Source: Ampullaceana balthica (lineage: Eukaryota > Mollusca > Gastropoda > Lymnaeidae). From it: a DNA stretch of 64,000 nucleotides. Shown piece by piece: positions 11,068 to 51,266 of this stretch. The translations under genes and the position numbers were made by a program. The notes under the pieces were generated by a model. It ran no database searches and was not told the DNA's origin. It saw only the letters and a program-made list of their open reading frames with translations. The DNA lies in assembly GCA_944989445.1 (NCBI GenBank), contig CALYLW010000570.1, forward strand, positions 248,001-312,000. Direction: 5' to 3'. The first letter of the stretch is position 1; every line of letters starts with the position of its first letter.

Positions 11068-11495
11068 TCAAGGAACTTCACACAGGTATCGATAATCATA
11101 TATTGGACTCTCACAAGGGACGTCATGCTTGCATTGGTTAGGGTAGTAGGCAAGGCACTGCTCACGTCGTCCAAAGTTAACTATATTGGGCTGTGAATAG
11201 CACCAATTAATGAAGTTCAGTTTTTTACCATTCCTATCAAACTCCCAAACTTTATCCTGGAACTTGTCTGTCCCTCCTATGAGTAAGCCGGTGACGCCTG
11301 TCAGACTACGTAAAATTGTCATCAATGTTCCTTCTTCGGCCTTATCTTGCACCTCGGCGAGGTATCCACACAATGATGAGCATACAGCAGCAGCTGCAGC
11401 GTCCGAAGTGTAAGTTGCCTTTGATGCGTAGTAGGTTGTCCCAAAGTATTCGTATTTGTTAACAAGGTTTAGACTTTTCTCATGAGGGACGCATT
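11068..11495 (-). CDS. Secreted chitin-binding C-type lectin, exon 5 (terminal, lectin domain)
   Basis: This exon encodes residues 101-241 of a predicted 241-residue protein and ends in a stop codon. It is a complete C-type lectin domain: the first cysteine in KCVPHEK, then VCSSLCGYLAEV, a WIGL-like LLIGGTDKF, FINWCYSQPN at the carbohydrate-loop position, a CLAYYPNQC segment and the terminal HDVPC...YRYLCEVP. Lectins of this fold bind sugars, often with calcium. QPN lies between the EPN (mannose) and QPD (galactose) signatures, so specificity is open. The acceptor TTTACTTCCAAATAG is at 11496; codon phase 1 matches exon 4. An upstream in-frame ATG exists but lies in the intron and is not preferred. 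Confidence 0.85.
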
Positions 11496-12218
11496 CTATT
11501 TGGAAGTAAACAAACAGAAACTGAATGATAATTTTCACTAATGTCCCATAATTCAGACATTTAGATATAGTCAGATTTATAGAGTATTTTAGATTTTAAG
11601 TTAAAAGGAAGAATATAAAGAAGGTGTATGCATTGAATTGTTAAATGTACTTGTGTATAAATTTTACTTTTAAAGGGGTGCGATTTTTTATTTAAAATAT
11701 TAGGCTGAACAGTTTGAGTTAATGTAGTTTTGTAAATATTATCTGTGATTCTTAATTTTATTTTTGTCGATTCAATTTAAAAATGATATAGATTGTTGAA
11801 AAAAAAGACATATTTCAAGACGTCTGATTCCTCTAAAGAATTTATATAGATCTTAACGAGGTGATCTTGTGGAGTGCACTTGTTCCCTTTTTTAGAGTAA
11901 AAACTTTTAACTTGAACACATGGTAGCTTAATCGCACTTTACTCTTGAAAAATGCATTAATACATATTGTAGAAGTATTTCAGTTCGTAAACATAGAGCG
12001 GTTCACAACGTGTAAAAAAATCTATGACTAATTTTTTTGATCATTGCATGTCTTCCTCTGATTTTAAAATTCACTTTATTTCATTTCACATCTTTGCTTG
12101 TCTTTCTGTCTCATCTGGTACAATTTTTTAAATTGAATTTAGTTTTGCTTAATTGGATTGACATTTTGCAACAATTGACCTTAATAAAAGAGAATAATGT
12201 GGTAAACTAATATAAAAG
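11496..12218. other. Intron 4 of the lectin gene, unremarkable part
   Basis: AT-rich sequence between the exon 5 acceptor and the first small hAT element. I see no repeat or coding signal. Confidence 0.6.
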
Positions 12219-12855
12219 TAGGGCTGTTATCGATTAATTTAAATTTAATCGTTAACTTTTGAAAAATTATCGATTAATTAATCGATAATTTCGATTAAAG
12301 CCAAAAATATAAATTTATGACGTCATTAAACTGAACATTTCTCACGGACATTGAAAATTAAGAATATTTTGACCAAAATTTTATGACAATATGTTGATAC
12401 TTGTTGATCGGATGTTTGTGCTGAAGGTGGTACGTCAGCGATGTATTTGATCCTTTAAAAGAGAATTGTTTATGGCAGTGAACACAGTTAACTATTTCAC
12501 CATCTTCGACTTTGCCATCCGCAGTTAGCTTAAAAACAAAATTTTTGCTCAACTTTCTAGTTATATATTTAAATTTAACTGCGCTGATGCTGTCACCCAT
12601 TTTTTAAATGACGTCTGCTGGTCCACATAAAGTAATGAAATAAATTATAATATTACGCGAGAGAAGTTTGTAAGTAGAAAATATATAAATTATTATTAAT
12701 TATTAATAATTAAATTATTTATTAATACAATTTTTGAAAAATATTATACATATTTTCTTCAATTTTAATCGAATTTTTATCGATTAAAATAATTTTAATC
12801 GATAAACAAATTTAAGGATTAATCAAGAAATTAATCTTTAATTTCCGCAGCCCTA
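12219..12855 (-). mobile_element. Miniature hAT-like element carrying a BED-finger exon
   Basis: Ends are TAGGGCTGTTATCG (12219) and a matching ...GCAGCCCTA (12855), with extra inverted ATCGATTAAT-rich sequence inside both ends. The flanks TATAAAAG and ATAAAAAG are an imperfect 8-bp pair. Only the N-terminal zinc-finger part of the transposase gene remains. Confidence 0.65.
12358..12600 (-). pseudogene. BED zinc finger fragment of a hAT transposase
   Basis: An 80-residue reading frame begins MGDSISAVKFKYIT and contains CVHCHKQF followed after about 15 residues by HLQHKH. This is the C-x2-C ... H-x4-H pattern of BED zinc fingers, which bind transposon ends at the N-terminus of hAT transposases. 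Nothing of the catalytic domain follows. It may be a remnant or, less likely, a DNA-binding repressor-like product; there is no evidence of expression. Confidence 0.6.
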
Positions 12856-13185
12856 ATAAAAAGTATGACTACTGTGCGTTTGATTAGCTATCATTCGATT
12901 TAATTTACAAACAGATCCTATGGCGGATTAAGGGGGGGGGCTGAAAGGGCTAAAGCCAGGGGGCCCCGATGATTTAGGGGCCCCCAAACTTAGCATATTT
13001 TGTAATAAATGTGGAAAAATGTATACATGAATTGCTGAAAATATGATAAATTAATAAAATATCATCTTTTAAAATGATCTCTATTCCGACACGATAGTCT
13101 TAGCAGTCAAAAAACCTGTTTTGATAGGCTCAATAACAGAAATTATTAAAGAATATTATATATATTTTTTAAATTGACAACCCTA

Positions 13186-13258
13186 GTCGTGGCTGAATGA
13201 GAAGTATTAAGGCTTGTGGTGCAAGCGGTGGCGGGATCGATCCCCGGGTGGGGTGTTA
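13186..13258 (+). repeat. tRNA-like segment (A and B boxes) inside the hAT element
   Basis: TGGCTGAATGAGA resembles a pol III A box and GGGATCGATCCCCG a B box, about 40 bp apart. GCTTGTGGTGCAAGC could form an anticodon-like stem-loop. Equivalent segments sit in the three other copies (29522-29600, 48997-49069, 53652-53720). It is not a functional tRNA gene; no acceptor stem is recognisable. Confidence 0.6.
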
Positions 13259-13460
13259 ACTTTTTTTTCATGTGTTTTTTAATTTTATAAATTGTCTTTT
13301 ACACTCAATTTTAGGATACCACCAAAAAGTTATTTCTTCGTGTTCGGTTTTTTCATGAATAATCATTTTGGATGAATATTTACAAGTTACAGTCTTATAT
13401 TAGCTGCTAGCAATCATTTTATCTAAAGGTACACTGGCTGGACTGGGCCCCAGTTTGAAT

Positions 13461-14974: not shown

Positions 14975-15158
14975 TTTAGTGCGTGTAGATCTGGATAATA
15001 ATCCAATAATAATGATTTGAAAAGTACTGAAGTGCAGGCATGTATTTAGAAAGCCATTTTATTTATTTGAACCAAAACATACCAGGTTTTTTACATGTGC
15101 GTAAGCCAAAATGAATTAATATTTAATCTAGTAAATTTAACTAAAACTTAACGCCACA
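14975..15158 (-). repeat. 3' LTR of the CsRn1-type element
   Basis: 184 bp. On the minus strand it starts TGTGGCGTTAAG and ends CGCACTAAA. It is about 97 percent identical to the copy at 19388-19570. Confidence 0.9.
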
Positions 15159-15243
15159 TAACCCACCTCCCAGCATTGTACAATGCGAATATATTGATTA
15201 ATACGAAAAAAAGGAAGAAATTTCTTGTAGATAAGATATTCTG

Positions 15244-16805
15244 TCATAGAGGAAATAAGTGATAATAGAGAGAAAGAGAAAAAAATATTGTATACCACAA
15301 GCAGCAGGCTAACATTGCATTCTCACAATAACAAATAAACCGAAATTTGCACCAATGAGAATTAATCGTCATATAGCCACTTTGGAGTGCGTGAAGTTCG
15401 ACCACTGCGTGTGGTGACTGTAGGTGCAACCTGCTCTCGATTGTTGTCGGTTGTGGGGGTGAGGTTTTTTGAATAGTGTTCTTCGGACAAGGTGATGGTT
15501 GGTGGACATGCGGAGTCGAGACATCTTGGATGAAGGCATCTTTCAAACGATCAATCGAAACTTTGTCTATGCGTTTACCAAGTTGTAAAGTAAAGTATTT
15601 ATCATCTGTCTTAATTATTTTATACGGTCCGTCGTATGGTCGTTGGAGTGGGTGTCGATGTTTATCATTTCTAACGTAAACATATCCTGTCGAGGCCAAG
15701 TTTGTGGGGACATATGTTGATAGTTCGCTATGAAACGAAGGGACATGTGGCTCTACTTTTCTCATTGTTCGTTGAAGAAGTTTGAGATACGAGGAGTCGG
15801 GTTCAAATGTATGGCCCTCAACAGGTTGTAGGAATTCCCCAGGTAGGCGGAGAGTGGTACCATACACTAACTCTGCAGGCGAGCAATTAGGATCAACTTT
15901 CCGTGAGGAGCGAATGCCCAACAGTACAATAGGCAGTTCTGCGAACCAGTCAGTGTCAGATGCACGAGCCTTTAGTGAAGCCTTAAGTTGCCTGTGAAAA
16001 CGTTCGACCATACCGTTGCACTGTGGATGATAAGCAGTGGTCATTTTGTGATGGATACCTAAAAGTTTGTTGCACTCTGCCCACAAGACGGATGTGAACT
16101 GGGGGACTCTGTCAGAAGTAATGTCTTCGGGTACCCCAAAACTAGAGATCCAATGGTGAACCAAGGCTTGTGCGCACGTGGCAGCTTGAGCGTCCGGGAG
16201 GGGAATGGCTTCTGGCCATCTGGTAAATCGGTCTATGATGGTGAAAAGGTAGGTCATTCCTTGACTGTGAGGTAATGGGCCTATAAGGTCTACGTGTAGA
16301 CTTCGGAATCTTGCGGCGGGAGCTGGTTGTTTTATGAGAAGTGCTTTAGTATGGCAATGTACTTTGGAAACTTGACATGCGTGGCATTCTTTGCACCATT
16401 TGCGGATATCTTTCTTCATGCCCCACCACACGAAACGTGACTAATGGATTGTTGAGTTGGACGTACTCCGGCATGGGACAGCGAATGAATACAGTCAAAC
16501 ACTTTACGAGTCCATGATTGAGGTAGAATTGGTCTAGGCTTACCTGTGGAGACGTCGCAGAGCACAGCTATGCCTTCGGTTTGTATATATTTTAGCTGAA
16601 GTCCTGTATCCGGTGTACCGTAAAGTGTCATTTCACCTGATCTTTCTTGGTCAAGAGAAAGACGTTGAAAATCTCCTGCCAAGGGACTCAGTAGATCTGA
16701 TGTTGGTCTATCCTGTGAAACAGCGTGTACAGTGTCATTGATAGTCTGTTCGACATTGATGCCAGGTCCGTGTGATGTGGCAGCCCGAGACAGTGTGTCC
16801 GCCAC
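15244..16805 (-). pseudogene. Integrase of the CsRn1-type element, frameshifted
   Basis: The integrase would insert the DNA copy into the genome. The zinc-binding HHCC part is split: the histidines (HSLSHAGV..., about 16430-16500) lie in one frame, and CKECHACQ (about 16370-16395) in the other, with a one-base slip near 16431. The core has the first aspartate in HVDLIGPL, the second in TSDRVPQF and the glutamate in NGMVERFHR. A C-terminal chromatin/DNA-binding part follows, with PYDGPYKII. All catalytic residues are present, so the frameshift is the visible defect. The upstream part (16520-16805) has the end of RNase H with ADTLSRA. Confidence 0.85.
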
Positions 16806-17983
16806 AACATTATTTTTCCCGCTGATGTGCTGGATATCAGATGTGAACTCAGCAATGAAGGAAAGGTGTCGACTCTGTCGGGGTGATCGTTCTGTTTGAC
16901 TTGTGAGTGACTGGGTCAGTGGTTTATGGTCCGTGAGAAGTGTAAAATTTCTCCCTTCTAAGAAGTGTCGGAAATGTTTTATAGCACTATATGCCGCTAG
17001 GAGTTCTCTATCAAAAGCACTGTAGATTTTTCAGCTGTTGAAAGTTTCCGAGAGAAAAAGGCGATGGGCACAAACTCTCTACCTATGTGTTGTTCTAACT
17101 GTGCGCCAAGGGCAGTGTTTGAGGCATCGACGGTAAGGACTGTTTTTGCTTCTGGATCAGGATGGTGGAGAAGGACGATTTGACTTAGAGATTCTTTGTT
17201 CTTTTCGAAGGCTGACTGACAGTCTGTAGACCACTCAATTTTCTGCCCTTTACCACTAGCTTGAGCGTGGAGCGGAGCTAAAGTGTCAGATATGTGTGGC
17301 AGAAAACGATGGTAATAATTTACATGGCCTAGAAATTTTTGGAGGCCAGTGCGATCTGTTGGAGCATCATAGTTGAGCAAGGCGGTTACTCTGTCAGGAA
17401 GAGGTTGTATACCCTCAGTTGCCACTCGATGGCCAAGGAAATCTAGTTGTGAGGCTCCGAAGATGCACTTTTCTTGGTTCAGCACCATTCCGTTGTCTGA
17501 GAGGAGGCGGAAGAGCTCGTGAAGGTGGGAACGATGTTCCTCGATAGTACGGCTCGCGATTAGGATGTCGTCAATGTATACGAAGGCAAACGGCACATCT
17601 CTTAGAATTCCCTCCATGAGACGCTGGAACGCTTGAGCCGAATTTTTTAGGCCAAATGGCATACGTTTGAATTCCCATAAACCGAAAGGGGTTGTGACAG
17701 CCGTTTTAGGTATGGAGGCTGCTGCCACTGGAATTTGATGATAACCTCTCACCAGATCGACCTTTGAAAATATGGTGCATCCGTTAAGGCGGCTATTAAA
17801 GTCCTGTATATGCGGCAATGGATAGTGGTCATCTTCTGATGCTGCATTTAAACGTCTGTAATCACCGCAAGGTCTCAATTGACCACCCGACTTTGGAACC
17901 ATGTGTAGTGGAGAAGACCATGGGGATTGTAGGCGTTGAATAATGCCCATTTCTTCCATCTTCAAGAATTCAGATTTGGCCAT
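16806..17983 (-). pseudogene. Reverse transcriptase-RNase H of the CsRn1-type element
   Basis: The enzyme copies the RNA genome. Visible RT blocks are SPWSSPLHMVPKSGG, CGDYRRLN, FSKVDLVRGYHQIP, MPFGLKNS, the catalytic FVYIDDILIAS, LDFLGHRV and LQKFLGHVNYYHRF. RNase H starts with LTVDASNTALGA. A frameshift near 16997 separates RNase H into two frames; the continuation with TDHKPL-like sequence is at 16806-16996. The region upstream (17984-18126) links to the protease in another frame. Confidence 0.9.
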
Positions 17984-18126
17984 TGCAAGTTTTGCTGGAT
18001 CAAGGCGCCGTGGCTTAGTGTGTACAGGTCGGCCAGTTGTGACTATGTGATGTTCTACCCCGTGTTTGTTTATTTGTGAATCAAAATTCGGGGTTGTAAG
18101 TTCTGGGAACTGTTGGAGAAGAGTTT

Positions 18127-18591
18127 TTAAGTCATTGGATACATTAGGGAAAGGCCTGCTAGGGAAAGGGGAAATGACGCGTCTTTTAAGACGATCTCTA
18201 TATTGTCTTTAGTTAAAAGACGTTTGCCTCTAAGATCGATGATCAGTCTATTGGAAGTGAAAAAATCTGCACCTAGAATAGGGCGGGTGACATCTGCAAG
18301 CAAAAATTGGTGTTTGTAAGACTTGTTTTTGCCTACTGTTATAGTTTTTTCTACTTTACCTCTGATGGTTATTGATGTACCATTGGCTGCGGTGAGGTAC
18401 CCTGTTGCGGTTTCTGTTTTGTCTAGTCGTGATGTAGGGTAGACGGATATCTCTGCTCCAGTGTCGACTAAATATTTTGTGTTGGAGTGGCGATCGTAGA
18501 CTGCTAATGTGTTCTTAGAGTTGAGTGAGCCGGTCGCTGACACGCTTAGTGATCGGCTGGGCCGTTTCCCGCGGTTTTTTTTGTTTGTCAC
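18127..18591 (-). pseudogene. Aspartic protease of the CsRn1-type element
   Basis: The piece contains YLVDTGAEISVYP, with the D-T-G catalytic triad, and ILGADFF further on, the usual retropepsin flap-side motif. In this family protease is made as part of a longer polyprotein. The beginning of the frame overlaps the degenerate gag zinc finger (HKKFGPKAYRCQPG followed by a stop where a cysteine is expected, about 18600-18650). Confidence 0.85.
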
Positions 18592-19361
18592 GAGACTTGC
18601 AAATTTTCACCCTGGCTGGCAACGATAGGCCTTGGGCCCAAACTTCTTGTGGTATGTACCTATGCTGGCCTGGTATTAGTAACGAGGCTTGGGTGGTACC
18701 TGGCCGTCTGTTGTTTTTGTAGAATGCGTTGACTTCACCTATACAACTTTCGGAGGAACAAGGTTGATCAGGCGGTGATCTCTCCATGCTCACGCTGGAC
18801 ACTGCGTAGTTCGTTGAGCGAGTCTCCCATATCCTATCTGCTGCCTCTGCCAACTTTTCGGTGTCTTCTATGTCGTGGCCCGCAAGCACCGTCTTTATCT
18901 CATGTGGGAGATTAGCTAAGAACAGAGCTCGTTTGAATGTTTTGGGGTCATCATTGAGGGCATTTATTTTCCTGAGAAGGGCTGTAGGCCTACGATCCCC
19001 CAGACTAGATAAATTTAGCAGCTCGGCATCCTTCTGGGCCTGGCTCTTTCCATAGGTTTTCAGTAGAGAAGCCTTTAGGTGCTCATATTTATTCTCAGTT
19101 GGAGGATTAATGAGCACAGCCTGCACTTCCTCCGCTGGATTGACATCGAGGGTGCTAACAACATAATCGTATTTTGTTTGGTCATTGTTTATGTTTTTTA
19201 TGCCAAACTGCGCCTCAATTCTGGCAAACCAAACTTCAGGAGATTTTGTCCCAGAAGTCAGGTAACTTCAGCGAGACTGCATTCAGGCCTATGGCCCCTT
19301 GTTGCTGTTGGTTTTGTGCATATAGTAACTGACTTAACCGATCTATTATTTCTTCAGTCAT
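18592..19361 (-). pseudogene. Gag of the CsRn1-type element, frameshifted
   Basis: Gag forms the particle that packages the RNA. A start codon at 19361, 8 nt past the PBS, opens MTEEIIDRLSQLLY. A one-base change near 19250 shifts the frame: EVWFARIEAQFG continues in the frame of 18515-19126. Features of the CsRn1/Kabuki gag follow: NPPTENKYEHLKASLL, LGDRRPTALLRKI and FLANLPHEIKTVLAG, then KLAEAADRI. The terminal CHCC-like zinc finger is degenerate. The protein cannot be read through without repair. Confidence 0.8.
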
Positions 19362-19368
19362 TCTGATT

Positions 19369-19386
19369 ATCACGTCGGGGTCACCA
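19369..19386 (-). other. tRNA-Trp primer-binding site
   Basis: TGGTGACCCCGACGTGAT on the minus strand, one base inside the 5' LTR, equals the complement of the 18 terminal nucleotides of animal tRNA-Trp including CCA (tRNA sequence recalled, not searched). Confidence 0.85.
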
Positions 19387-19387
19387 G

Positions 19388-19570
19388 TTTAGTGCGTGTA
19401 GATCTGGATAATAATCCAATAATAATGATTTGAAAAGTACTGAAGTGCAGGCATGTATTTAGAAAGCCCTTTGATTTATCTGACCAAAACATACCAGTTT
19501 TTTTACATGTGCGTAAGCCAAAATGAATTAATATTTAATCTAGTAAATTTAACTAAAACTTAACGCCACA
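19388..19570 (-). repeat. 5' LTR of the CsRn1-type element
   Basis: 183 bp, direct repeat of 14975-15158. TG starts the minus-strand sequence at 19570. Confidence 0.9.
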
Positions 19571-20131: not shown

Positions 20132-20167
20132 TTTCACTACCGAATATTGGCCTGGTCTTAGTTGCTC
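20132..20167 (-). CDS. Secreted chitin-binding C-type lectin, exon 4 (linker)
   Basis: A 36-nt exon, read GATKTRPIFGSE with split codons at both ends, joins the CBM14 part to the lectin domain. The acceptor (CTCCAACCATCTCCAG) and donor (GTAAGT) are both strong. It starts with two bases that complete a codon begun by exon 3 and ends with one base that exon 5 completes. The call rests on this phase agreement and on the splice sites; so short an exon has little sequence evidence of its own. Confidence 0.65.
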
Positions 20168-20947: not shown

Positions 20948-21129
20948 TGTAATATATTAAGCTTTATTCTTGGGGGAACTCACTCTCTTGTATTAGTCTT
21001 ATAATGTTTGAGTGATGTCCCTTGCTTGTTTAGTTTCGTATTGAATACAGAATAAACGAGGCGTACATAAAATGGCTTCCTCGTCTGTTGTATCATCTAT
21101 CTAGAATTATAAGATCTCAATCCACTTCA
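20948..21129 (+). repeat. 5' LTR of Ty3 element 2
   Basis: 182 bp, TGTAATATATTAAGC to ...CCACTTCA. Contains GAATACAGAATAAACGAG near its middle, which includes an AATAAA. Nearly identical to 25628-25809. Confidence 0.95.
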
Positions 21130-21221
21130 TTGGCGACGAGGATTAATCATCCACTAAAAAGAGCACATGCTTACTTAAGAAGAAGCTTGCTAGAGCATAT
21201 TTGCTAAGTATTTGTAGGATA

Positions 21222-22499
21222 ATGGCTCTATATGGCCAGATAAAAGAATTTAATTCGAATGAAGAAACCATTCATGATTATCTAGATAGGTTAAGCTTCT
21301 ACCTTGAAGCTAACGACTTGACGATAGAAGCCAAAAAGAGAGCTGTTTTGTTAACAGTCAGAGGGCCTCAACAATTTAGGCTATTAAAGGACTTATGTGT
21401 ACCATCTAGTCCAGCTACCAAGAGCTTTAACGAGCTGAGCAAACTCCTCACAGATCACCATGCGCCTGCACCACCAAAGTTCCTGTGATTTGACGGTAGG
21501 ACTCGTCAACCAAACGAGTCTATATCAGAATATGTTGCAGCACTACGTCATCTAAGTGAATTCTGTGAATTCGGCGACACGCTATCCGACAGACTATGTG
21601 AAAAGTTTGTCACCGGTGTGAACAGCACTGATGTGCAGAGAAAGTTGCTTCTCGAGACAGATCTAACATTGGGAAAAGCAATACAACTTGCAACTTCATT
21701 CCAGCAGTCATCCGATGCGGCCAGATCTCTGGCGCCTTCAGGGATCCATGCAGTAGACAGCAGGTCAGTCAACAAACACCAACCCCATCAGAGCAGTTCA
21801 ACTTATGCTAAACAGCCTGCAAGTTCAAATCCTAGATCTAAATCTAGTAATAATTATCAAAAATGTCATCGATGCAACGGTCCCATTGCATCTCATCAGT
21901 GCAAGTTCAAGTCAGCAACTTGCTATAAGTGCAGTAAGCAAGGTCACATTGCCAAGGTCTGCTTTGCAAAGTCTTCGTCTGTTGCTAGATCTAGCCAGTC
22001 AGGACAGTACCGCAACCAAAGGCAGCACTATGTTAACTGTCACCAAGACAGCCTAACCCAACCAATGAACCACTCTACCAGTAAAAATGCTCAAACTGAT
22101 CCGCAGCCGGAGTTCAACCTGTTCTCTGTGAAATCAACAAGTCATGCTCCCATCAACGTACCAGTTTGTATCAACGGTAAGAGCATCATCTTCCAGCTTG
22201 ACATGGGAGCATCTCTAACCGTCATCACAAAGAAGGACTTTGACGCTGTCACAGGAGGATCAGTGCCTCTACAACCATGTCACAAGTGCCTAACAACATA
22301 CACAGGTGACAATGTTCCGGTGATAGGAGAGTGTATAGTTCATATAAGCTATAATGGTCAAAGTGTTAAACTTCATCTTCTTGTGGTTGAAGGAAACGGA
22401 CCACCATTGCTAGGTAGGAACTGGTTAGTTGATCTTAAGTTAGACTGGGGGAGCATATTTTCAGTGAACAAAGCAAGAGAATCTAGTTTACTTCAATAG
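21222..22499 (+). pseudogene. Gag-protease of Ty3 element 2
   Basis: Starts MALYGQIKEFNS. A premature TGA at 21486-21488 interrupts an otherwise continuous frame (KFL-stop-FDGRTRQ). Gag ends with two zinc knuckles: CHRCNG...HQC and CYKCSKQGHIAKVC, which bind RNA. The protease follows: CINGKSIIFQLDMGAS, then PPLLGRNWLVDLKLDW. The catalytic triplet is D-M-G instead of D-T/S-G, which should cripple the enzyme. The frame closes at 22499 and pol continues in another frame. Confidence 0.9.
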
Positions 22500-24075
22500 A
22501 TAAAGTTGTATCTGAATATGAAGGTGTCTTTGGTAGTTCAGGGTTACTAAATGATAGGACAGTGAAGATAAGCATTAAAGATATAACAAATCCAAGATAC
22601 TGCAAAGCTAGAGTTCCACCTTATGCAATGAGGGATAAAATTGAAAATGAGCTAAGTAGATTAGAATCTAATGGCATCATAAAGAAGGTAGACTATTCCG
22701 ATTGGGCAACGCCCATTGTGCCAGTGTTAAAGAAGGATGGTTCTGTAAGAATTTGTGGAGACTATAAAGCTACACTGAATAAGCAAATAGAGCTAAATAG
22801 GTACCCTATTCCTAACATTGAGGATATTTCTTTGAATTTAGCAGGAGGAGACAAATTCACTGACTTTAGTCAACTAGAACTTCATCCGGATTCAAAAGTC
22901 TATACGACAATAAACACACATCAGGTACTCTACCAATATGAAAGACTATGTTTTGGGATATCATCTAGCCCTGGAATTTTCCAGGCTGTCATGGACAGTA
23001 TTTTTCAGTTTATACATAACTGGTAAGAATGACACTGAACATCTTAAAACACTTGATAAAGTCTTGAAAATAGTCGGTGAAAAGGGTTTAAAAATAAACA
23101 AAGATAAATGTCAATTCATGCTGACAAATATTAGTTTTCTGGGTTATAGATTGAGCAGGCAAGGTCTCAGACCTCAACCTGAGAAAACAAAAGCCATTAA
23201 AGAGGCAACCAAACCTGAAAATACCCAACAGCTAAGAGCTTTTTTGGGCTTGATAAATTACTATGCAAAGTTCATAGGGAATCTGTCTGATAAACTATCA
23301 CCACTGTACAAGCTGCTGCAGAAAAATGCAACTTGGCACTGGGGTAAACAATAAGATGCTGCTTTTAATGCAGCAAAAGAAGCTTTGTCTTCTGACACCT
23401 TGCTAGCTATACTATGACCCAGGGAAAAGACTTATCTTAACATGTGATGCTTCACCAGATGGTGTAGGAGCAGTTTTATCTCACATAGATGAAAATGGTG
23501 ACAGACCCATTGCTTTTGCCAGTAGATCTTTGAACCATGCTGAGAAAAATTATTCTCAGTTAGATAGGGAAGGCTTAGGCATCATTTTTGGTGTTAAGAA
23601 ATTTCACAAGTTTCTGTTTGGTAGGGAGTTCACCATCTTTACAGATCATAAGCCATTACTGGGGTTGTTTGGGAAAAACAAACCCCTGCCTGAGCATGCC
23701 TCACCAAGGGTTCAAAGGTGGGCTATCACACTAGCCGCATACAATTATGAATTGAAATACAAACCTGGATCTGAGAATAGTGCAGATGGTCTTAGTCGTT
23801 TACCTTTAATAAACCAAAGCCTTAGCTATGTACCAGAAGATGTATTTGTTCTTTTCACTATCATGGATAACTCCAATATAAATGTGAATGATGTTAAGAG
23901 AGAAACACAAAAAGATGAGTGCTTGATAAAAGTATATGAGTACTGTAAGAATGGTTGGCCTGAAGAGTCAGTGAATGATGATTTAAGACCATATAAAATA
24001 AGAAAAATAGAGTTAAGTCTAGAAGATGGATGTGTGCTATGGGGGTCAAGGGTTATTATCCCTAAAATGTTATAA
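22500..24075 (+). pseudogene. RT-RNase H of Ty3 element 2, YxDD box deleted
   Basis: RT blocks KDGSVRICGDYKATLN, DKFTDFSQLELH and LCFGISSSPGIFQAVMDS run to about 23010. Then only 7 bases separate the string IFQ from ITGKNDTEHLKTL; relatives have about 13-14 residues with YxDD there. The catalytic box is therefore gone, with a change of frame. INYYAKFIGNL follows (to 23354), then a second frame change near 23400. RNase H: TCDASPDGVGAVL, REFTIFTDHKPL, NSADGLSRLP. The frame ends at an in-frame TAA at 24073-24075 just ahead of integrase. Confidence 0.9.
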
Positions 24076-25228
24076 AAAGAAGTTTTAAGAACTTTACATG
24101 ATACTCATCTTGGTTCTTCCAAAATGAAGAGTCTTGCACGATCGTGGTTCTGGTGGCCACATATGGATGCTGATATTGAAAAATATGTAAAGCTTTGTTC
24201 AAGCTGTGCACAACATTCAAATCAACCAGCTACAGCCCCTTTGCAAAACTGGCATTGGCCAATCGAACCATGGAAACGTATCCATATAGATTTTGCAGGA
24301 CCCTTCATGAACAAAATGTTCTTAATTGTTATTTGATTCACATTCTAAGTGGTTAGAAGTTAAAATCATGAACACAATCACTGCAAGTGATACCATTATA
24401 GAACTTAAGGAAATATTTTCAACTCATGGGTTACCTGATCAATTTGTTTCAGACAATGGGCCTAGTTTCACTGCTCATGAGTTTAAACTGTTTTGTGTAG
24501 CAAATGATATTGAGCATAAAACCACATCACCCTATCATCCTGCTGGGAATGGTTTAGCTGAAAGAGCGGTAGGCATATTCAAAACCGCTATGGTAAAAAT
24601 GGGTACCGGTAACAAATTTTCTCTCAGGGAAAGAGTTAACAGGTTCTTAGCCAAATACCGCACAACTCCTCATATAACAATAGGTGTTGCACCATGCGAA
24701 TTGCTGTGTGGTAGAAAAATTAAAACTCACCTTGACCTACTAAATCCAACTGTTCAAAGTCTGTTTCCCAACATCAACATAAATACAAATTAAATCATGA
24801 CAAAACATCCATTGAGAGAGTTTGGGGTTAATGATAATGTGTATCTGAGAAATTATGGGAGAGGGGAAAAATGGATGCCAGGTCAAATTGTTCAATGTAC
24901 AGGACCTGTGTCTTATAAAGTAAAAACAAATAATGGACTTATTGTCCGTAGACATGCAGACCAGTTAAAAATAACCTGTGCAGATAATGAGTGTGAATCT
25001 GTCAATCCCACCAGATCTGACCGGTTCACACCAACTAAGTTTGTTCCACAACCAATGTCTGTTGATATGAGTGAACCAAGTACTCTAGAGTCAGAAAATG
25101 TAAATTCTGGAATTAATTATTTAGATACTGGATTCCCTGAGCTAGAGAGTCCAGATGGTCAGAATCTTGAATCACCAAATCAACAGCCACTGAGAAGGTC
25201 AAAAAGGACAAAGTCCCAGATAAGTTAG
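24076..25228 (+). pseudogene. Integrase of Ty3 element 2, frameshifted
   Basis: The zinc-binding region is HDTHLGSSKMK...KLCSSCAQH (24090-24220). The first catalytic aspartate is in IHIDFAGPF, the second in VSDNGPSF and the glutamate in NGLAERAVG. The frame shifts at about 24330 (LIVI-stop against DSHSKWLEV) and meets TAA at 24791-24793 before the C-terminal part with YLRNYGRGEKWMPG. Catalytic residues are intact. The 25229-25627 stretch up to the 3' LTR is AT-rich and non-coding. Confidence 0.9.
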
Positions 25229-25627
25229 ACCTTTGATTTTAAAAGTTTGACATCATTGTTTTGTATTTTAATTATGTTGTGGCATATTTTGCATTTGTTG
25301 TAAGGATTTAATCTACCAAATGATTCAAATCATATATTGTTCATATTATAATATATTTAGTGATTCATTAAATTGTTTAACATTTCAGACGGAATGCATA
25401 TATATAGTGTTTTGTATTGACTTTTGAGGTGTTATTAATTGAAAAGGGATCATTATTCATAATTCAGTTTCATACATTTCTTTATAAAATAGCAATGATA
25501 ATTCAATCTTTCTTTTATTATTGCTTGGCAATTCTAATGTTTTAAAGTAGAAAATAAAAAGGTAATTTTAAGATACTATCATTTATTCTCTTGAAAGCTA
25601 TGTTAGTATTTACTAAGGGTAAAGGGA

Positions 25628-25809
25628 TGTAATATATTAAGCTTTATTCTTGGGGGAACTCACTCTCTTGTATTAGTCTTATAATGTTTGAGTGATGTCC
25701 CTTGCTTGTTAAGTTTCGTATTGAATACAGAATAAACGAGGCGTAGATAAAATGGCTTCCTCGTCTGTTGTATCATCTATCTAGAATTATAAGATCTCAA
25801 TCCACTTCA
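25628..25809 (+). repeat. 3' LTR of Ty3 element 2
   Basis: Direct copy of 20948-21129 with two substitutions. Immediately followed by the GTATT duplication. Confidence 0.95.
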
Positions 25810-26256
25810 GTATTTTAGTTTTATATACTTAAATATTGCCGTATATACTCATTCTATAGCCCGTTCGTTCATAAGCCGACACCCCCCACACTTTTGGAAG
25901 GGAAAAGTATTAAAAGTGTATAACCCGATCGCAAGGTGACCCCCCCAAAAATAATAGGACAGTTTTAAAAAATGGTACATATTTTTTTTAAAACTACAAG
26001 CTAAATCGGTCATTATGATTGTTTACTTGTAGTGTGTTGTACTGCCTATCTTTGTCTTTCTGCTTTTTGATAAGCAAGAGTTCCCGGTATTTAAAAAAAA
26101 CAATTATTTGGTAAACAGTGACGAAAGCGCGTACATTAAAATCCGTGGTTGAAAACAAAATTTGTAAAACAATTGATTAAAACGTTCACAAAAAAATAAT
26201 TAAATAAGGTAAGTGCTGATTTTTAATAATACATTATAGCTTCTGATAGAGCAGTC

Positions 26257-27694
26257 TAAATCAGGGTAAAGTGCCCAAGGATTGGAAATTAGCTAACGTA
26301 ACTCCACTCTTTAAGAAAGGGGATAAATCAGACCCTGGTAATTACAGGCCTGTATCACTTACTAGTATCACCTGTAAATTACTAGAACACATAATATATA
26401 GTAGAATAGTTAACCACCTTGACAAATATAATGCCCTATGCCCACATCAACACGGCTTTAGAAAAAACAGATCATGTGAAACACAATTAATAGGTTTAAT
26501 AGATGAACTATCAAATGGCTTAGACAAAAATGATCAAATGGACACAATATTACTAGACTTCACAAAAGCATTTGACAAAGTTCACCACCTTAGTTTACTT
26601 AAAAAACTTAACTACTTTGGAATCTCAGGTTCCTTACATCACTGGATCCAAGACTTCCTTTTGGGCAGGGAGCAAACTGTAATAATTAATGGATCTAAAT
26701 CTGCACCAATAAATGTTAACTCAGGAGTTCCACAAGGAACTGTGCTAGGTCCCTTACTCTTTTTAATTTATATAAATGATTTACCCAACAACATCTCAAC
26801 AGGTACAAAAGTTAGGTTATTTGCTGATGATTGTATAATCTATAGAACAATTAAATCAGAACAAGATAGCAAAATTTTACAAAAAGACTTAGATGAATTG
26901 ATAAAATGGGAAACTAACTGGAGTATGTCTTTCCACCCAGAAAAGTGTCAACTGTTAAGAGTAACAAAGAAAAAGAAACAAATAAATTCAAAATATTACA
27001 TTCATGGAAAAGAACTGACCCAAACTAAAGATGCAAAATACTTAGGAGTCTTAATAAATGAGAAACTATCATGGAATCCCCATGTCAATGAAGTTATTAA
27101 AAAATCAAACAAAACCTTAGGCTTTATAAAAATGAACTTTAACAAATGTAATAGAGATATAAAACTAAAATGCTACCTCACTTTGGTGAGACCTGTACTA
27201 GAATATGCATCTTCTGTATGGGACCCATCCACCAAAGAAAACATTGATAAACTAGAACAAATTCAAAAAAGAGCTGCCAGATTCATTACTGGAGAATATT
27301 CGAAACTGACAAGAATAACACCATTAGTTAAATCATTAAACCTTGAAACACTAGAGGATAGAAGAACCAAGAGCAAAGTAGTAATCATACATAAAGCAAT
27401 TAATTCTAATTTAGAAATACAACACAAAGATAACTTAATACAACCCTCAGATAGACATAAGGATAAAAACACCTTTCTTATTCCGTATGCAAGAACAAAC
27501 ACATACAAGTTTTCCTTCTTCCCGTCCGGAATTCGGGCGTGGAATGGGTTGCCTGAAGAATCCAGGAAAACCAACACTTTATCAACATTTAAATCTCTAA
27601 TAAAAATGCAGGACTAAACACAAACCATAGATAAGCGTAGGACGCAATAATCTTCTGTATAGAAGGAGCGTCTATAAACAGATAAGATAAGATA
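26257..27694 (+). mobile_element. 5'-truncated non-LTR retrotransposon (LINE)
   Basis: Flanked by AGAGCAGTC at 26248-26256 and 27695-27703, a 9-bp target duplication. The body is a truncated RT ORF, followed by a 3' UTR that ends in a hairpin (ATCTTCTGTATAGAAGGAGC) and a GATAA repeat tail. The same 3' tail ends the SINEs at 45491-45775 and 41146-41390. Confidence 0.9.
26271..27617 (+). CDS. LINE reverse transcriptase, 5'-truncated, open frame
   Basis: A 448-codon frame open from the truncation point to its stop at 27617. The product is the RT part of a jockey/CR1-like LINE, which would prime cDNA at nicked target DNA. Motifs in order: TPLFKKGDKSDPGNYRPVSL, QHGFRKNRSCETQL, LDFTKAFDKVHH, SGVPQGTVLGPLLFLIYIND, catalytic RLFADDCIIY, YLGVLINEKLSW, and a C-terminal LVRPVLEYASSVWDP ... 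PSGIRAWNGLPEE. The catalytic aspartates are intact and there are no internal stops. The endonuclease is missing because of 5' truncation, and no promoter is retained, so it is a dead-on-arrival copy. The first ATG is only the first after truncation. Confidence 0.9.
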   Translation: MPKDWKLANVTPLFKKGDKSDPGNYRPVSLTSITCKLLEHIIYSRIVNHLDKYNALCPHQHGFRKNRSCETQLIGLIDELSNGLDKNDQMDTILLDFTKAFDKVHHLSLLKKLNYFGISGSLHHWIQDFLLGREQTVIINGSKSAPINVNSGVPQGTVLGPLLFLIYINDLPNNISTGTKVRLFADDCIIYRTIKSEQDSKILQKDLDELIKWETNWSMSFHPEKCQLLRVTKKKKQINSKYYIHGKELTQTKDAKYLGVLINEKLSWNPHVNEVIKKSNKTLGFIKMNFNKCNRDIKLKCYLTLVRPVLEYASSVWDPSTKENIDKLEQIQKRAARFITGEYSKLTRITPLVKSLNLETLEDRRTKSKVVIIHKAINSNLEIQHKDNLIQPSDRHKDKNTFLIPYARTNTYKFSFFPSGIRAWNGLPEESRKTNTLSTFKSLIKMQD

Positions 27695-27968: not shown

Positions 27969-28038
27969 CTTCTGTGGTTGGTGCGTGGGTTATTTTCACG
28001 ACACAACCAGACGTGTGTTTTAGGACACAATCTTTAGA
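27969..28038 (-). CDS. Secreted chitin-binding C-type lectin, exon 3
   Basis: A 70-nt exon: SKDCVLKHTSGC then VVKITHAPTTE. The two cysteines are C5 and C6 of the CBM14 domain begun in exon 2, so the exon junction falls inside the domain. The acceptor is CATTTTGTCACCAG and the donor is GTATTG. It begins in phase 0, matching exon 2, and ends with one base of a codon, matching exon 4. The following residues are a Thr/Pro-rich linker. Confidence 0.8.
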
Positions 28039-28630: not shown

Positions 28631-28761
28631 CTTGGGGCTGTAGTGTTCTGTACGTAAGCAGCTTTTTTCTGTACCCTTGTAATTGGTGCAAATATAATAC
28701 TTGTCACAGGATGTAGGGTGAGGAACTTTGCCATTTTTCACAAAATCACAAGGATTAGGAT
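28631..28761 (-). CDS. Secreted chitin-binding C-type lectin, exon 2 (CBM14)
   Basis: A 131-nt exon encodes residues 21-64. It reads DPNPCDFVKNGK, then VPHPTSCDKYYIC and KGTEKSC. Cysteines C1-C4 have spacings 13, 5 and 9; with exon 3 the next spacings are 12 and 7. This is the peritrophin-A (CBM14) chitin-binding pattern, with the PHP and KYY aromatic positions that line the sugar site. The acceptor CACACTTTTTTCAG and donor GTATTA are clear. It starts with two bases completing the codon left open by exon 1. The exon is short and easily missed by ORF scans. Confidence 0.85.
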
Positions 28762-35711: not shown

Positions 35712-37353
35712 CTAACCACAAACACGATTATTTACATTCACAATATCAATTCCAGTATCTTGAATAAGTCGCTTAGCTTTTGACATGTCATTTTTGCTTC
35801 CAGATAATTCAACAGAATTTCGACCAGATGAGTCACTGTCATTAGAAACTTTTATCGGAAAACGACTGTCTGCTTCAAAGTCTCTGATTCTGTTTAATAC
35901 ACAACCCATTCTTCTTCCTACTTCAGATGATTGCACATAAATGGTCTCAGACTCAACAGTACCATCTCTATCTCTGCTACTATGGCCTTCATCCCTTTTG
36001 TCATATACATGATTGTCAATAGTGGCTACAGTGTAACTAGTTCTTATTTCTTCTCGATTTATCTTTCTTCTATCATTTATGTCTTGGTTTTCATTCTTTC
36101 TCCATGGTTGATCAAAATTTCTTATTCTGGAATCAAAACTATATCTGCCTCTCCATGATCTTCTACTTTGATTATAATCTCTACATATGGAATTATGATT
36201 GTATTTGTCTCTCCATGATTGTCTACCTTGATCATAATCTCTATGTCTGGAATTATGATTATATTTTTCTCTCCATGCTTGTCTATCTTTTGTTTTCAAA
36301 GTGATCTTGTCTTGATTTTTCTTCTGCATTCTTTCTTTTAGGGCTGCCATTAGGGGACACCCTATTTGGTTGTCCTTTATTGTGGTAACACTGCCTCGCC
36401 ATATGTCCTGGCTTTTTACAGTACCAGCAAATAGCTTGTCTGTTGCCTTGGTTTGGCAGACTCTGGTTTCTCATTCCTTGTCTTTTTTCTTGGTTTTTAA
36501 TTTGTATTGCAGCAAAGATATCTTGTCTCTTATCCATTTCCACATTTGGATGAGAGTCATTTAATGTGCGTAATGCATTTGTTAGCTCTGCTGATACGAA
36601 CTTTCTTATCAGTTAAATATGTGAATAGAGCTGGTGTTGGATTTTCTGAGAACTTGTCAATTAACACCATGTCTAGTATGCCCTTTGGATTGCTTGTATC
36701 TATTGCTGTCAGTTCCAGCCATTTTGTTAATTTAACTTGTGCTTCATGCACTATGATCTGTGGATCTTTGTCCATCTTGATTCTCATTTCATGAAATTCT
36801 TTTCTATAACCATTTTCTGAGTTTCCGAAATGACATAGAAGTGCCTTTTTGACATTTTTATATATGTTTTTGCCTTCTTTGGCTATACTGTTGTAAGCTT
36901 CAAATGCTTCTCCAGTTAGTTGAGTCATCAGTTGTGCTGACCAATCTTCTTCATCATAACCTTTCATGGCCATTATGGATTCAAAATAATCCAGATAAAC
37001 ATCCATTTTTTCTTTCTGGCTATCATATTTTCTAACTTTGATAGTATCCTTCGGTGCTGACTTTCTATTTGTGTCATTACCAGGATTGTGGCCTCTACTC
37101 TCTAAATCAATTTGTAGTTTTAACTTGTCAATTTTAAGTTGTTCAAGTTCTCTTCTTGCAGCTCTTTCTTCTCTTTCAATTATTTGTTTTTGCCTCTCTT
37201 TTCTCAGCAATTTTTTGCCTTTCTTTTTTTCAGCTATCTTTGCTTTTTTCTTCTTTGCTACATTTGACTTTCTCTTCAACAAAGTCTTTCAATTCTTTTC
37301 CACTTAAGCCAAATTTTTCTAGCTATGGCAGTGAATTCTTTGTAGTAATCCAT
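35712..37353 (-). pseudogene. Gag of the gag-only element, copy 1 (broken)
   Basis: Gag packages element RNA. The start is MDYYKEFTAIA at 37353. A one-base slip soon after moves the frame to a charged coiled-coil region and then KMDVYLDYFESIMAMKG (36557-37282). A second slip leads to the piece with the zinc knuckle CWYCKKPGHMARQC (36283-36543) and a third to tandem Arg/Tyr-rich repeats (SWRDKYNHNS-type) and a C-terminal tail (35712-36350). Copy 2 shows the unbroken order. No pol homology follows. Confidence 0.85.
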
Positions 37354-38780: not shown

Positions 38781-38789
38781 ACTTTTGTC

Positions 38790-40080
38790 CCAAATCTCCT
38801 TATTTGTTATCACATATTTCCTTATTTCTTGTCAAAAATCTGCTTGTTTCTTATAACATATCTCCTTATCTCTTGTCACATATCTCCTTATTTCTTATCA
38901 CATATCTCCTAATTTCTTATCACATATTTCCTTATTTCTTGTAATTTATCTCCTTATTTCTTATAACATATCTCATTATTTCTTGTCACATATCTCCGTA
39001 TTTCTTATCACATATCTCGTTATTTCTTGTCATATTTCTCCTTATTTCTTATCACATATCTCCTTATGTTTTGTTCAATATCTCCTTATTTCTTGTCACA
39101 TATCTCCATATTTCTTGTTCCATATCTCCTTATTTCTTATCACATATCTCATAATTTAATGTCATATATATCCTTATTTCGTATAACATATCTCTTAACT
39201 TCATATCACTTATCTCCTTATTTCTTGTCACATATCTCCTTGTTTCTTGACACATATCTCCTCATTTCTTGTCACGTATCTCCTTATTTCATGTCACATA
39301 TCTTCTTATTTCTTGTCACATATCTCCTTATTTTTTATCACATATCTCCTTATTTCTGTCACATATCTCCTTATTTCTTGTCACGTATCTCCTTATTTCT
39401 TATCATAAATCTCCTTATTGCATGATTTACATCTCCTTATTTCTTGTCACATATCTCCTTATTAATTGTCACATATCTCCTTATGTCTTATCACATATCT
39501 CCTTATTTCTTGTCACTTATCTTCTTATTTCTTGTCACATATCACCTTATTTTTTATCACATATCTCCTTATTTCTGTCACATATCTCATTATGTCTTGT
39601 CACATATTTCCTTATTTCTTATCACATATCACCTTATTTCTTGTCACTTATCTTCTTATTTCTTATCACATATCTCCTTATTTCTTGTTTCACATTTCAT
39701 AATGTCTTGTCACATATTTCCTTATTTCTTATCACATATCTCCTTATTTCTTGTCACTTATCTCCTTATTTCTTATCACATATCTCCTTATTTCTTGTTT
39801 CACATCTCCTTATTTCTTGTCACATATCTCCTTATTTATTGTCACATATCTCCTTTTGTCTTATCACATATCTCCTTATTTCTTGTCACTTATCTCCTTA
39901 TTTCTTGTCACATATCTCCTTATTTCTTGTCACATATCTCCTTATTTCTTTTCAGAGATCTCCTTATGTCTTGTCACATATCTCCTTATTTCTATTAAAA
40001 TATCTCCTTATTTCTTGTTCCATATCTCCTTATTTATTATCACATATCTCCTTATTTCTATCATCTTAGTTCTTATCACA

Positions 40081-40497: not shown

Positions 40498-41024
40498 GAT
40501 TCCAGATTCACCGGAGCCAGAGCAATATTTCATAAATTTTTATCTCAAACCCAGCATGCTGGATTTGGTCGGATTTATGAAGCAAATTTCTGCCGGAGCC
40601 GGATTTGTAAATATGGTCGGATTCCGGATTTGCCGGAGCCGCATTCGAAACCGGTACAACCTTAATTTCTGTCAAGTCAGATATAAAATGATAATCGGTT
40701 TAAAATCGGCGTTACATAAGAGATAACCGGTTTGCAAAAAATAAAAACAAAAAACCCCCATAAAAACATGAAATTAACAACCCTAAACATGACTAACCAT
40801 CGCTAGGGTCGGCGAATCACAGTTTATCTTTAAGGGGTGATAGTCATAGTAATAACGGGTGGGGCGGGTAACAACAACCTCTGTGTGCATGTCTCCACGT
40901 TTACTCGCTATTTTTTCATTAGTTCATGCTGCTGTTTTTGTCCGTACTCTCACGTTCTTTGCACTATCTATGATGAGCAGAACTGCGGCGTATGCTACGC
41001 TGCGGCTCGTTCTTGTATCTCCTT
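40498..41024 (+). repeat. 527-bp repeat, copy 1 (hAT-like end inside)
   Basis: About 95 percent identical to 47156-47682. It starts GATTCCAGATTCACCGG and ends TTCTTGTATCTCCTT, where minisatellite-like sequence begins in both copies. Inside is TTAACAACCCTAA near 40790, the terminal type of the hAT-like family at 13461. Confidence 0.8.
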
Positions 41025-41145
41025 GTTTCTTATCACATATCTACTTGTTTCTTATCACATATCTCCTTATTGCTTATCACATTTCTCCTTATTTCTTATC
41101 ACATATGTCCTTATTTCGTATCACATATCTCCTTATTTATCTTAT
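41025..41145 (+). repeat. 22-bp minisatellite, small block 2
   Basis: About five units of the TATCTCCTTATTTCTTATCA type, ending at the SINE. Confidence 0.85.
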
Positions 41146-41979: not shown

Positions 41980-42238
41980 TATCTCCTTATTTATTGTCAC
42001 ATATCTCCTTATTTCTTATCACATATCTCCTTATTTCTTGTCACATATCTCCTTATTTCTTGTCAAATATCTCCTTATTTCTTATCACATATCTCCTTAT
42101 TTCTTGTCACAGATCTCCTTATTTCTTGTCAAATATCTCCTTATTTCTTATCACATATGTCCTTATTTCTTGTCATATATCTCCTTATTTCTTATCACAT
42201 ATCTCCTTATTTTTATCATATATCTACTCATTTCTTAT

Positions 42239-42305
<67 letters not shown>
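41980..42305 (+). repeat. 22-bp minisatellite block 4 and (TA)n
   Basis: About 11 units (41980-42240), then about 32 TA units. CATGTTCAAATGAGCATG follows at about 42320, the palindrome of 40123-40140 with one change. Confidence 0.9.
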
Positions 42306-42307
<2 letters not shown>

Positions 42308-47105: not shown

Positions 47106-47155
47106 GTCAACGTTTGCTGACTTCGATAAAATGGCTCAATAAGTTTGACGAGCCC

Positions 47156-48924: not shown

Positions 48925-48996
48925 TTAAAAAATGGAATACGAAGAAATAACTGTTTGCCGGTATCCTAATATTGAGTGTAAAAATAGAATTTATTT

Positions 48997-49069: not shown

Positions 49070-49160
49070 ATGAAAATAAGTGAAGTTTAAAAATATAAAC
49101 AATAATCGTTAATATTTTCTCTTTGTGAACCTGTAAAATCAGTTTTTTAGAATTAATTTA

Positions 49161-49335
49161 CACATATCTCCTTATTTCTCGTCACATATCTCCTTATTTC
49201 TTGTCAAATATCTCCTTGTTTATTGTCACATATCTCCTTATTTCTTGTTACATGTTTTCTTATTTCTTGTTACATACTTCCTTATTTCTTGTTACATACC
49301 TTATTATTCCTTGTAACATATCTCCTCATTTCACA
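49161..49335 (+). repeat. 22-bp minisatellite, distal block
   Basis: About eight diverging units, nearly 7 kb from the other blocks. Confidence 0.85.
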
Positions 49336-49379
49336 CATACATTGACAAACAGGGCACCGACTCGACCTTTCACATAGTG

Positions 49380-50520
49380 TAGGACTATTTGCACGTGTCT
49401 GGAAGGCGAGGTACTTATTTAAGTTTTACTCTTAAGTGTCGGCGCAAACCCGCCATTATTGGTGACATTGTTGAGTTCTGCCAATGTTGTCAAAGTCGTC
49501 GTATCGTTGTTCACGACTTAAAGATTACATTTTCGGCACTATAAAATGACACCCCGAAACGACCAGAGCTCCTGCTTTGTCAGCCATGTTTGAACAAATA
49601 AATGATCAGCTATTACGATTCTAAATGGGAACAAACCAGAAATTCCCCAGTATATGCTTGATTTTTTTCAGAATTATAAAGAAACTCCTAAATGTAAAAA
49701 AACAAAACAAGTAGATTGTAAATAAAAGGCACTTGCCTATTAACCGATATATCATTTACTATCAAATCTGGTAGACATTAGCAAAAATCTTTTATCGTTA
49801 TCATTGAAATAGTATAAACAACCATTTTTCACCAACTTGTCAGAACCTCTCAACAATGTTTTGATATAAACCCAAAAATTTTGCAAAGAGGCCTCACCAC
49901 TGAATACAATAACCATGCAGTGCCAAGTATGGGGCTTAGTCAGTTTTTATAAGATCTATATCCTTAAGGCAACGTCAAAGAGAACTAAATAATTATTAGC
50001 TTTAGATGGACTTCAGCAATAACTGCAGCAGTTTAAAGTTCTACATCATTAGGAGTTTTTCTTAACTCCGTTATTTGTCGCCTTGGTTGTATGGATACTT
50101 TAATTAATAACCAGGAATAAGAGGTTTTTGAACTTTATTATTTACAACCTTATGGAACAGTTTCTAACTGCTCACCGGATTGCATATACCGACCATGCAC
50201 AACAAACGGACAACAGGAACTTGAAAATCAAACTTTTGAGGACTCTTAGCAAGTTTGTCTATGACAAAGAAAATGACTGGGGCCAATCTAGTTTTAGGTT
50301 TGCATATCAAACACATGTACATGCTTCAATCAGGTGCATTCCTTTGATGTCATATATGAAAGGAAGTCAAAGCTATGGACCTAAGACAGCCAGAAGATGG
50401 AATGACTTTCACATTACATATTCGGACATCAACGCTGACAAAGTCACTGTGAAGGGGGGCCTACAAAAAAAAAGAAACCAAAGAGGACCAGTGAAGAAAC
50501 AGAATTGCACAAGACACTAA
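49380..50520 (+). pseudogene. Ty3-type integrase relic and adjoining open frame
   Basis: Near 49461-49520 the translation DIVEFCQCCQSRRIVV is the cysteine pair of an integrase zinc domain. At 50128-50520 a 130-codon frame contains NRNLKIKLLRTLSKFVYDKE and HVHASIRC, resembling the part after the catalytic glutamate. Catalytic residues are not seen. The C-terminal third, with YGPKTARRWNDFHITY, is not recognised. Confidence 0.6.
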
Positions 50521-51205
50521 CATACACATGGCTCCTAAACTTTCAGATTAGGACTGACGCCTCACCGCCAATTTCAGGAAGGAAGTATCTTAGCACAAGT
50601 CTTGGCCTTTCTTTTAACGAAGTTGTATACTTTGGACGCACAAAAGATCTTGAACAACTGTGTCGTACATATTAACCGAAGGCAATGAAACCTCTTACCC
50701 CTGGGTCATCAGCAATATTGTGACCTGATCAGAGAACAAGCACATCCTCCTCAGTTATTTAACACTGACATGACAAAACAACTACATGACAACTTGAACC
50801 AAAATATGAACACGATTACAAACATTTCTGGCACCTATCATCATGTGCCTAGGCATTTGGGGGATATACATTGACCTATACTATAATCTGGACACTGGTT
50901 TAATCTGACCTCTTACACCAGGTATAGCTATTCTAAATAGTTATAGAAATTATATATCAGTTTTATTTTATGTTTTATGACGAGGGGGTTTCTTTTAAAT
51001 TTCGCTTTATTTTGATTAGATTTGGCATAGGTTTTATGTGTGCACTTTGTCAAGGCGAAATCTTCAAGAAGCTTAATAGAATACTATTAATGTTTCGCAT
51101 GTAATCTCCAATGTTCCTAATAAACACAACGTAAATTGTGTTAAAAACATAGTTTTTTTTCAGATAACGTAAAAATTAAATCACTAGCAATGACGAAGCT
51201 CTTAC
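50521..51205. other. Intron 1 start, no recognised features
   Basis: Possibly the decayed end of the preceding relic. No supported frame. Confidence 0.5.
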
Positions 51206-51266
51206 CTTGACAGCTCGCAGGGTTGTAGTTGCCAATGAGGATCAGTGACAATATAGATTTCTGCAT
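51206..51266 (-). CDS. Secreted chitin-binding C-type lectin, exon 1 (signal peptide)
   Basis: The start codon is at 51266-51264. The exon reads MQKSILSLILIGNYNPASCQ, a short basic start, a hydrophobic stretch and a small-residue cleavage region, i.e. a secretory signal peptide. The donor G|GTAAGA is at 51205. One base is left over, which fits the two-base start of exon 2. The link to exon 2 over a 22.4-kb intron is inferred from phase and from biological sense: a secreted chitin-binding protein needs a leader. An upstream non-coding exon cannot be excluded. Confidence 0.7.

Follow-up and report, generated by a model that had tools for sequence, protein, structure and literature searches.

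A stretch of 64,000 bases from the freshwater snail Ampullaceana balthica (contig CALYLW010000570.1, here C570, positions 248001-312000, in an assembly of 1.097 Gb and 3363 contigs; hereafter the window) holds most of an intact copy of what, judged by homology, is a genuine intron-rich snail gene. Its predicted product would comprise a signal peptide, one six-cysteine CBM14 (peritrophin-A) domain, a Thr-rich linker and one C-type lectin domain, in that order, and the searches of the assembly described below place the gene in a multi-copy family in this genome. We accept the gene model because full-length two-domain proteins from Lymnaea stagnalis and paralogs with the same order of exons 1, 2, 3 and 5 both support it. 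On balance, we favour the view that the protein is a chitin-anchored glycan receptor, probably secreted, that works like the VCBPs of chordates without being one of them.

Exon structure of the gene

Five exons on the minus strand, of 61, 131, 70, 36 and 428 nt, sum to 726 nt including the stop codon and encode 241 residues. All four introns are GT-AG with phases 1/0/1/1, their lengths are 22,444, 592, 7,801 and 8,636 bases, and the spliced frame contains no internal stop; the structure proposed in an earlier note on this DNA was thus reproduced in full. Exon 1 (51206-51260, 55 nt as corrected below; to 51266 in the earlier version) encodes the putative signal peptide and has a phase-1 donor. 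The first part of the CBM14 domain, with cysteines 1-4, lies on exon 2 (28631-28761, phases 1 and 0), which is the same exon in the paralogs. Exon 3 (27969-28038, phases 0 and 1) supplies the second part, with cysteines 5 and 6, and the start of the Thr-rich linker. The 36-nt exon 4 (20132-20167) is a symmetric (1-1) linker exon, and exon 5 (11068-11495) encodes the C-type lectin domain and the stop codon. A candidate poly(A) signal, AATAAA, can be read 3' of the stop at 11034-11039 on the same strand, and a second at 10984-10989. The CBM14 cysteines occupy residues 25, 39, 45, 55, 68 and 76; as had been claimed, their spacing of 13-5-9-12-7 requires exons 2 and 3 to be joined, the fifth and sixth being on exon 3.

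Exon joins were ranked with a profile hidden Markov model (HMM) of eight two-domain relatives, with the window sequence left out. The join of exons 2 and 3 ranked first of 2124 combinations (109.7 bits, against 103.4 for the next). Among 327 ATG-started candidates, exon 1 ranked first both by the family HMM and by donor score, and when begun at 51260 it was first of 3499 AG-started candidates by the HMM. Exon 1 spliced directly to exon 5 also stays in frame, as expected since the CBM14 block is bounded by phase-1 introns.

Relatives in Lymnaea and in the same genome

A search of the spliced model against 5.8 billion proteins returned a sole relative, P0001, an unnamed Lymnaea stagnalis protein (99% of the query, 38% identity, E 3.6e-46). 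Profile searches added six more two-domain Lymnaea proteins, P0002-P0004 and P0013-P0015. All seven have the same two domains as the window protein, in the same order and at similar length, and none carries a functional name; the lectin match of P0014 falls slightly below the cut-off (21.5 versus 22.6). P0004 is the closest (54% identity over 98%) and also stands nearest to the window protein in the tree, with support of 87/92 that is not decisive. P0005, likewise a two-domain protein, comes from a 942-base contig of source 'lgn'; a 235-residue frame on so short a contig suggests that the contig is a spliced transcript. P0006 and P0007 have the lectin domain and no CBM14.

Within the A. balthica assembly, at least 150 sequences match the lectin exon at E of 0.001 or lower (of 187 candidates, 150 were scored), and 33 match the CBM14 exon at E of 0.1 or lower (all 52 candidates scored). 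For pairing, the 33 CBM14 matches were set against 34 lectin matches, namely 33 of the 150 (the top ones and those on CBM14-bearing contigs) with one added. In 18 of the 33 cases the next same-strand match downstream within 60 kb is a lectin exon and 15 are unpaired, a count made without a control for chance pairing and including several pairs of distant relatives. Nine of the pairs lie on contig C123, at about 705-1267 kb; a pair on C613 sits in a 1090-residue open frame and is probably something else.

Two loci, on C123 (1213-1226 kb) and C692 (585-611 kb), carry exons 1, 2, 3 and 5 again, with order and strand unchanged. At a third, on C123 (1243-1267 kb), exons 2, 3 and 5 recur, and exon 1 was located by DNA similarity. 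Splice sites and phases of these paralogs agree with the model wherever they can be read from the sequence contexts, so that both the Lymnaea homologues and the same-genome paralogs bear out the exon joins of the earlier note.

Two further copies of the lectin exon were searched for an accompanying CBM14 exon. One lies 20.8 kb past the window (C570:332763-333182), is 78% identical to exon 5 and contains one stop codon; no CBM14 exon (E below 0.05) was found in the stretches examined upstream of it, to the contig end. The other is on C868 (634178-634591), with no CBM14 exon at the same threshold in the 40 kb upstream. The C868 copy and the lectin-only P0006 and P0007 may be cases in which the anchor, as a phase 1-1 block, was lost or gained.

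Exon 4 may be an in-frame cassette, possibly an optional one. It is second of 439 candidates by the family HMM (279.7 versus 279.8) and second by splice score. Including exon 4 raises the score of the model from 264.9 to 279.7, a gain that says little, because other linkers score equally high. Skipping exon 4 keeps the frame open, and, unlike the window gene, P0004 and P0014 lack it in their annotated form. A copy of the exon 4 region is present 1.3 kb upstream of the neighbouring exon 5 copy (C570:334476-334660). There the 36-nt length, the AG and the GT are kept, and exon and flanks are about equally conserved, so coding is not demonstrated by this copy.

Start of the gene

The earlier note described a 40-kb gene beginning at an ATG at 51266. 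Its five exons hold; the start and the extent are probably wrong. A T-rich tract and an AG precede exon 1 in two paralogs, on C123 (~1226 kb) and C692 (~611 kb), and neither has an in-frame ATG downstream of the nearest preceding stop. Three paralogs instead have four codons, reading MIVL, MTVL or MTVW and followed by gtgagtaa, 3.1-3.5 kb further upstream. Five of nine Lymnaea proteins similarly place four residues (MAVF, MSVS, MAVL, MTAL, MPAL) ahead of a common 18-residue block; of the remaining four, two have a longer stretch before it and the other two start within the block. By comparison with the paralogs, the ATGCAG at 51261-51266 (minus strand) thus probably serves as a 3' splice site, with exon 1 beginning at 51260. 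The family HMM scores the two starts nearly equally (279.7 with the ATG at 51266, 278.7 from 51260).

A matching start exon can be proposed on C570, the examined sequence of which contains 3500 N. The codons MKFL with the donor gtaagtaa (C570:321476-321487) are the top of 127 candidates by donor score in the 31.7 kb upstream of exon 1, and a four-codon candidate as good appeared in 2 of 100 runs with first-order Markov sequences. Of 559 ATGs, this one has the 110 upstream bases most like those of the three paralogs, by a modest margin (138 versus 126 for the runner-up). Since the paralogs place exon 1 behind a splice acceptor and a four-codon exon upstream of it, we are fairly confident that the gene starts 9.5 kb past the window end, which would give a span of about 62 kb and a protein of 243 residues; the ATG at 51266 is the less likely start.

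Domains and their rates of change

Pfam matches in the product are limited to CBM_14 (PF01607; residues 25-76, E 2.1e-8, 34.6 bits versus a cut-off of 22.1) and Lectin_C (PF00059; residues 132-239, E 1.4e-4, 22.9 bits, barely over the cut-off of 22.6), with no immunoglobulin (Ig) domain. All six CBM14 cysteines are kept in nine of nine two-domain sequences. The cysteines of the lectin domain are kept in all 11 sequences aligned, except C198 (10 of 11) and C221 (9 of 11). A hydrophobic stretch, ILSLILIG, has a mean hydropathy of 2.96 over its 8 residues, and relatives have longer stretches; comparison with them makes it likely that the protein is secreted.

The structure predicted for the lectin exon (predicted local distance difference test, pLDDT, 82.6; predicted template modelling score, pTM, 0.78) has C-type lectin domains as its leading PDB matches: DC-SIGN (2xr5, TM 0.70), codakine (2vuv, 0.68) and mannose-binding protein C (1kza, 0.71), all scaled to query length. 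Lectins also came first among structure matches for the model of P0004 (pLDDT 72.7, pTM 0.56). The predicted fold is therefore the same as in codakine and the vertebrate mannose-binding proteins and DC-SIGN. By sequence, the first PDB match is again mannose-binding protein C (1bv4, 6.2e-7). Aligned to it, the window lectin has QPN where that protein has EPN, E for E, and KHD in place of WND. The five places of the sugar-binding ligands at calcium site 2 are accordingly Gln, Asn, Glu, His and Asp. In the 11-sequence alignment the Asn of EPN and the Asp of WND are conserved throughout, the first ligand position is Glu in nine sequences and Gln in two (the window protein and P0004), and the third acidic position is Glu in seven and Gln in four.

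Rates of change were compared among a young trio of paralogs (C123 at 1213 kb, C123 at 1243 kb and C692 at 585 kb). For CBM14, the nonsynonymous rate (dN) of the three pairs is 0.079, 0.055 and 0.048, and its ratio to the synonymous rate (dN/dS) is 0.38, 0.32 and 0.52. The lectin exon gives dN of 0.143, 0.217 and 0.269 and dN/dS of 0.71, 1.04 and 1.17. In two pairs the domains have similar synonymous rates; the third pair has a dS of 0.091 for CBM14 and of 0.23 for the lectin. In two of the three pairs the bootstrap interval of the difference in dN between lectin and CBM14 lies above zero. The half of the lectin exon after the NWC motif, which holds the ligand residues, has the higher dN, and its dN/dS is 0.78, 1.19 and 1.99, versus 0.56, 0.92 and 0.75 before NWC.

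Transposons in and around the gene

The claim that a host gene for a CBM14 and C-type lectin protein lies here amid transposons also stands, with both domains matched and long terminal repeat (LTR) elements in the introns. Intron 4 contains an LTR retrotransposon on the minus strand (14975-19570), with LTRs at 14975-15158 and 19388-19570 that are 97.3% alike and with RVT_1, RNase H and rve matches. Another in intron 3 (20948-25809, plus strand, opposite to the gene) is flanked on both sides by GTATT; its LTRs are 98.9% alike, and it has protease, RNase H and rve matches. Open reading frames (ORFs) for reverse transcriptase follow in intron 3 (26250-27617, plus strand; RVT_1, E 1.8e-39) and in intron 1 (31976-32710; E 4.9e-6, below the cut-off). 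Intron 1 also holds 22-bp tandem arrays of one related unit, with up to 58 copies (38785-40059, 41016-41138, 41980-42245 and 49161-49332), which yield long meaningless open frames. The introns have thus grown partly through recent insertion.

Two related gag-like ORF regions with weak zinc-knuckle or KH-like matches lie on the minus strand, one in intron 1 (35712-37288) and one upstream of exon 1 (57102-58895). Downstream of the gene is a Helitron_like_N match (7922-8449, plus strand, E 1.9e-24). At the window end (61679-63989) is a long tandem array whose periods are about 168-171 and 499 bases. Scans for tRNA and Rfam gave no matches.

Discussion

The data establish the exon structure (through homology), both domains, the existence of paralogs and, for one trio of these, a rate contrast between the domains; secretion, binding to chitin and to sugars, the site of action and an immune role are inferred. 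In the mechanism that we favour, the CBM14 domain would tether the protein to host chitin, for example in the peritrophic membrane or another chitin-bearing surface layer, and the lectin domain would face outward and bind sugars on microbes, parasites or mucus. In Lymnaea the midgut and digestive gland have a peritrophic membrane (PMC9813111). The innate-immunity or gut-lining role proposed in the earlier note gains modest support from the lectin rate in the three young paralogs.

The closest functional parallel is with the VCBPs of protochordates, which likewise combine a chitin-binding and a recognition domain in one secreted protein (PMC4757023). In Ciona they bind the chitin of the gut as well as bacteria, with which they colocalise; VCBP-C without its chitin-binding domain was less effective on biofilms (PMC4757023). 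We propose the same mode of working for the window protein; VCBPs, however, carry V-type Ig domains, whereas the window protein has a C-type lectin domain and, by Pfam, no Ig domain, and membership among them is rejected. The same finding excludes it from the CREPs of Biomphalaria, which are defined by at least one IgSF domain besides a signal peptide and a C-type lectin domain; the window protein has CBM14 instead. A secreted ricin-type lectin of rotifers places an N-terminal chitin-binding domain before the lectin, as here, but belongs to a different lectin family and is reported as a single protein (PMC8878817). A more ambitious proposal, which we hold only tentatively, is of an expanding freshwater-snail family with a constant chitin anchor and a lectin head whose ligand face diversifies under selection, an independent protostome counterpart of the chordate VCBPs in which a C-type lectin replaces Ig.

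Several observations weigh against these proposals. The Asn of WND is replaced in all 11 sequences, which makes classical calcium-dependent sugar binding by the lectin domain uncertain. The bootstrap interval of one trio pair reaches -0.001, and in the half after NWC dS is higher too. The rate comparison covers a small number of sites in three pairs that are not independent of one another; its counting method is simple, and its exon ends are approximate by 1-2 codons. Between the window gene and the trio, dN/dS is 0.52-0.60 for CBM14 and 0.21-0.40 for the lectin, with dS near saturation. Against the C868 copy the lectin exon gives 0.30, and its ligand half 0.08 at saturated dS. The lectin thus changes faster than the CBM14 anchor in a few young copies, and for the window gene the contrast is absent or, if anything, reversed. 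These rates of the window gene itself, which oppose the contrast, slightly lower our confidence both in the mechanism and in the more ambitious proposal of a diversifying family.

It is less probable, though worth serious weighing, that the protein is structural, bound to the chitin of shell, radula, egg capsule or mucus, with a lectin domain that binds matrix sugars or mineral and varies under relaxed constraint. CBM14 and C-type lectin proteins both appear in mollusc shell matrix papers, and the loss of the calcium-site residue in all 11 sequences fits a role other than sugar binding. Relaxation alone, however, does not call for the ligand-half dN/dS above 1 seen, on few sites, in two of the three pairs (1.19 and 1.99). 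Less probable again is a recognition factor of plasma or haemocytes, in which CBM14 would bind foreign chitin, whether of fungi or on the surfaces of arthropods or worms, and the lectin domain would bind host cells or other sugars. Known examples of snail plasma lectins that carry a C-type lectin domain are the CREPs (PMC10875847), and small chitin-binding proteins act in invertebrates as immune effectors (PMC8878817); on its own, such a factor would leave unexplained why the anchor is conserved and the head changes. It is very improbable that the gene is a pseudogene in decay or that exon-like pieces of different genes have come together by chance: recent insertions in introns as long as 22 kb, the stop codon in the neighbouring exon 5 copy and the C868 copy, which has no CBM14 match in the 40 kb upstream, might suggest it, but the open frame, cysteines and splice sites are retained at 54% identity to P0004, the exon order is repeated in paralogs, and the lectin exon has a dN/dS of 0.30 against C868.

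Among the papers listed by the literature searches, with most subscription journals outside their coverage, none was seen to describe a snail family combining CBM14 with a C-type lectin. The main text of a Lymnaea immune transcriptome paper contains neither 'C-type lectin' nor 'chitin' (PMC7919325). The Aplysia immunome lists 146 C-type-lectin-domain proteins, and 'chitin' is absent from the paper (PMC9334734); a paper on gut chitin in basal chordates mentions neither molluscs nor lectins (PMC6109156).

The gene illustrates how a protein of about 240 residues can be kept intact over some 60 kb of transposon-filled introns, and how a four-codon start exon can place the true start beyond a 64-kb window. 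If the proposed reading is true, a multi-gene family that joins a chitin anchor to a fast-changing lectin would be a concrete and testable candidate for a part in the barrier immunity of snails, themselves important hosts of parasites.

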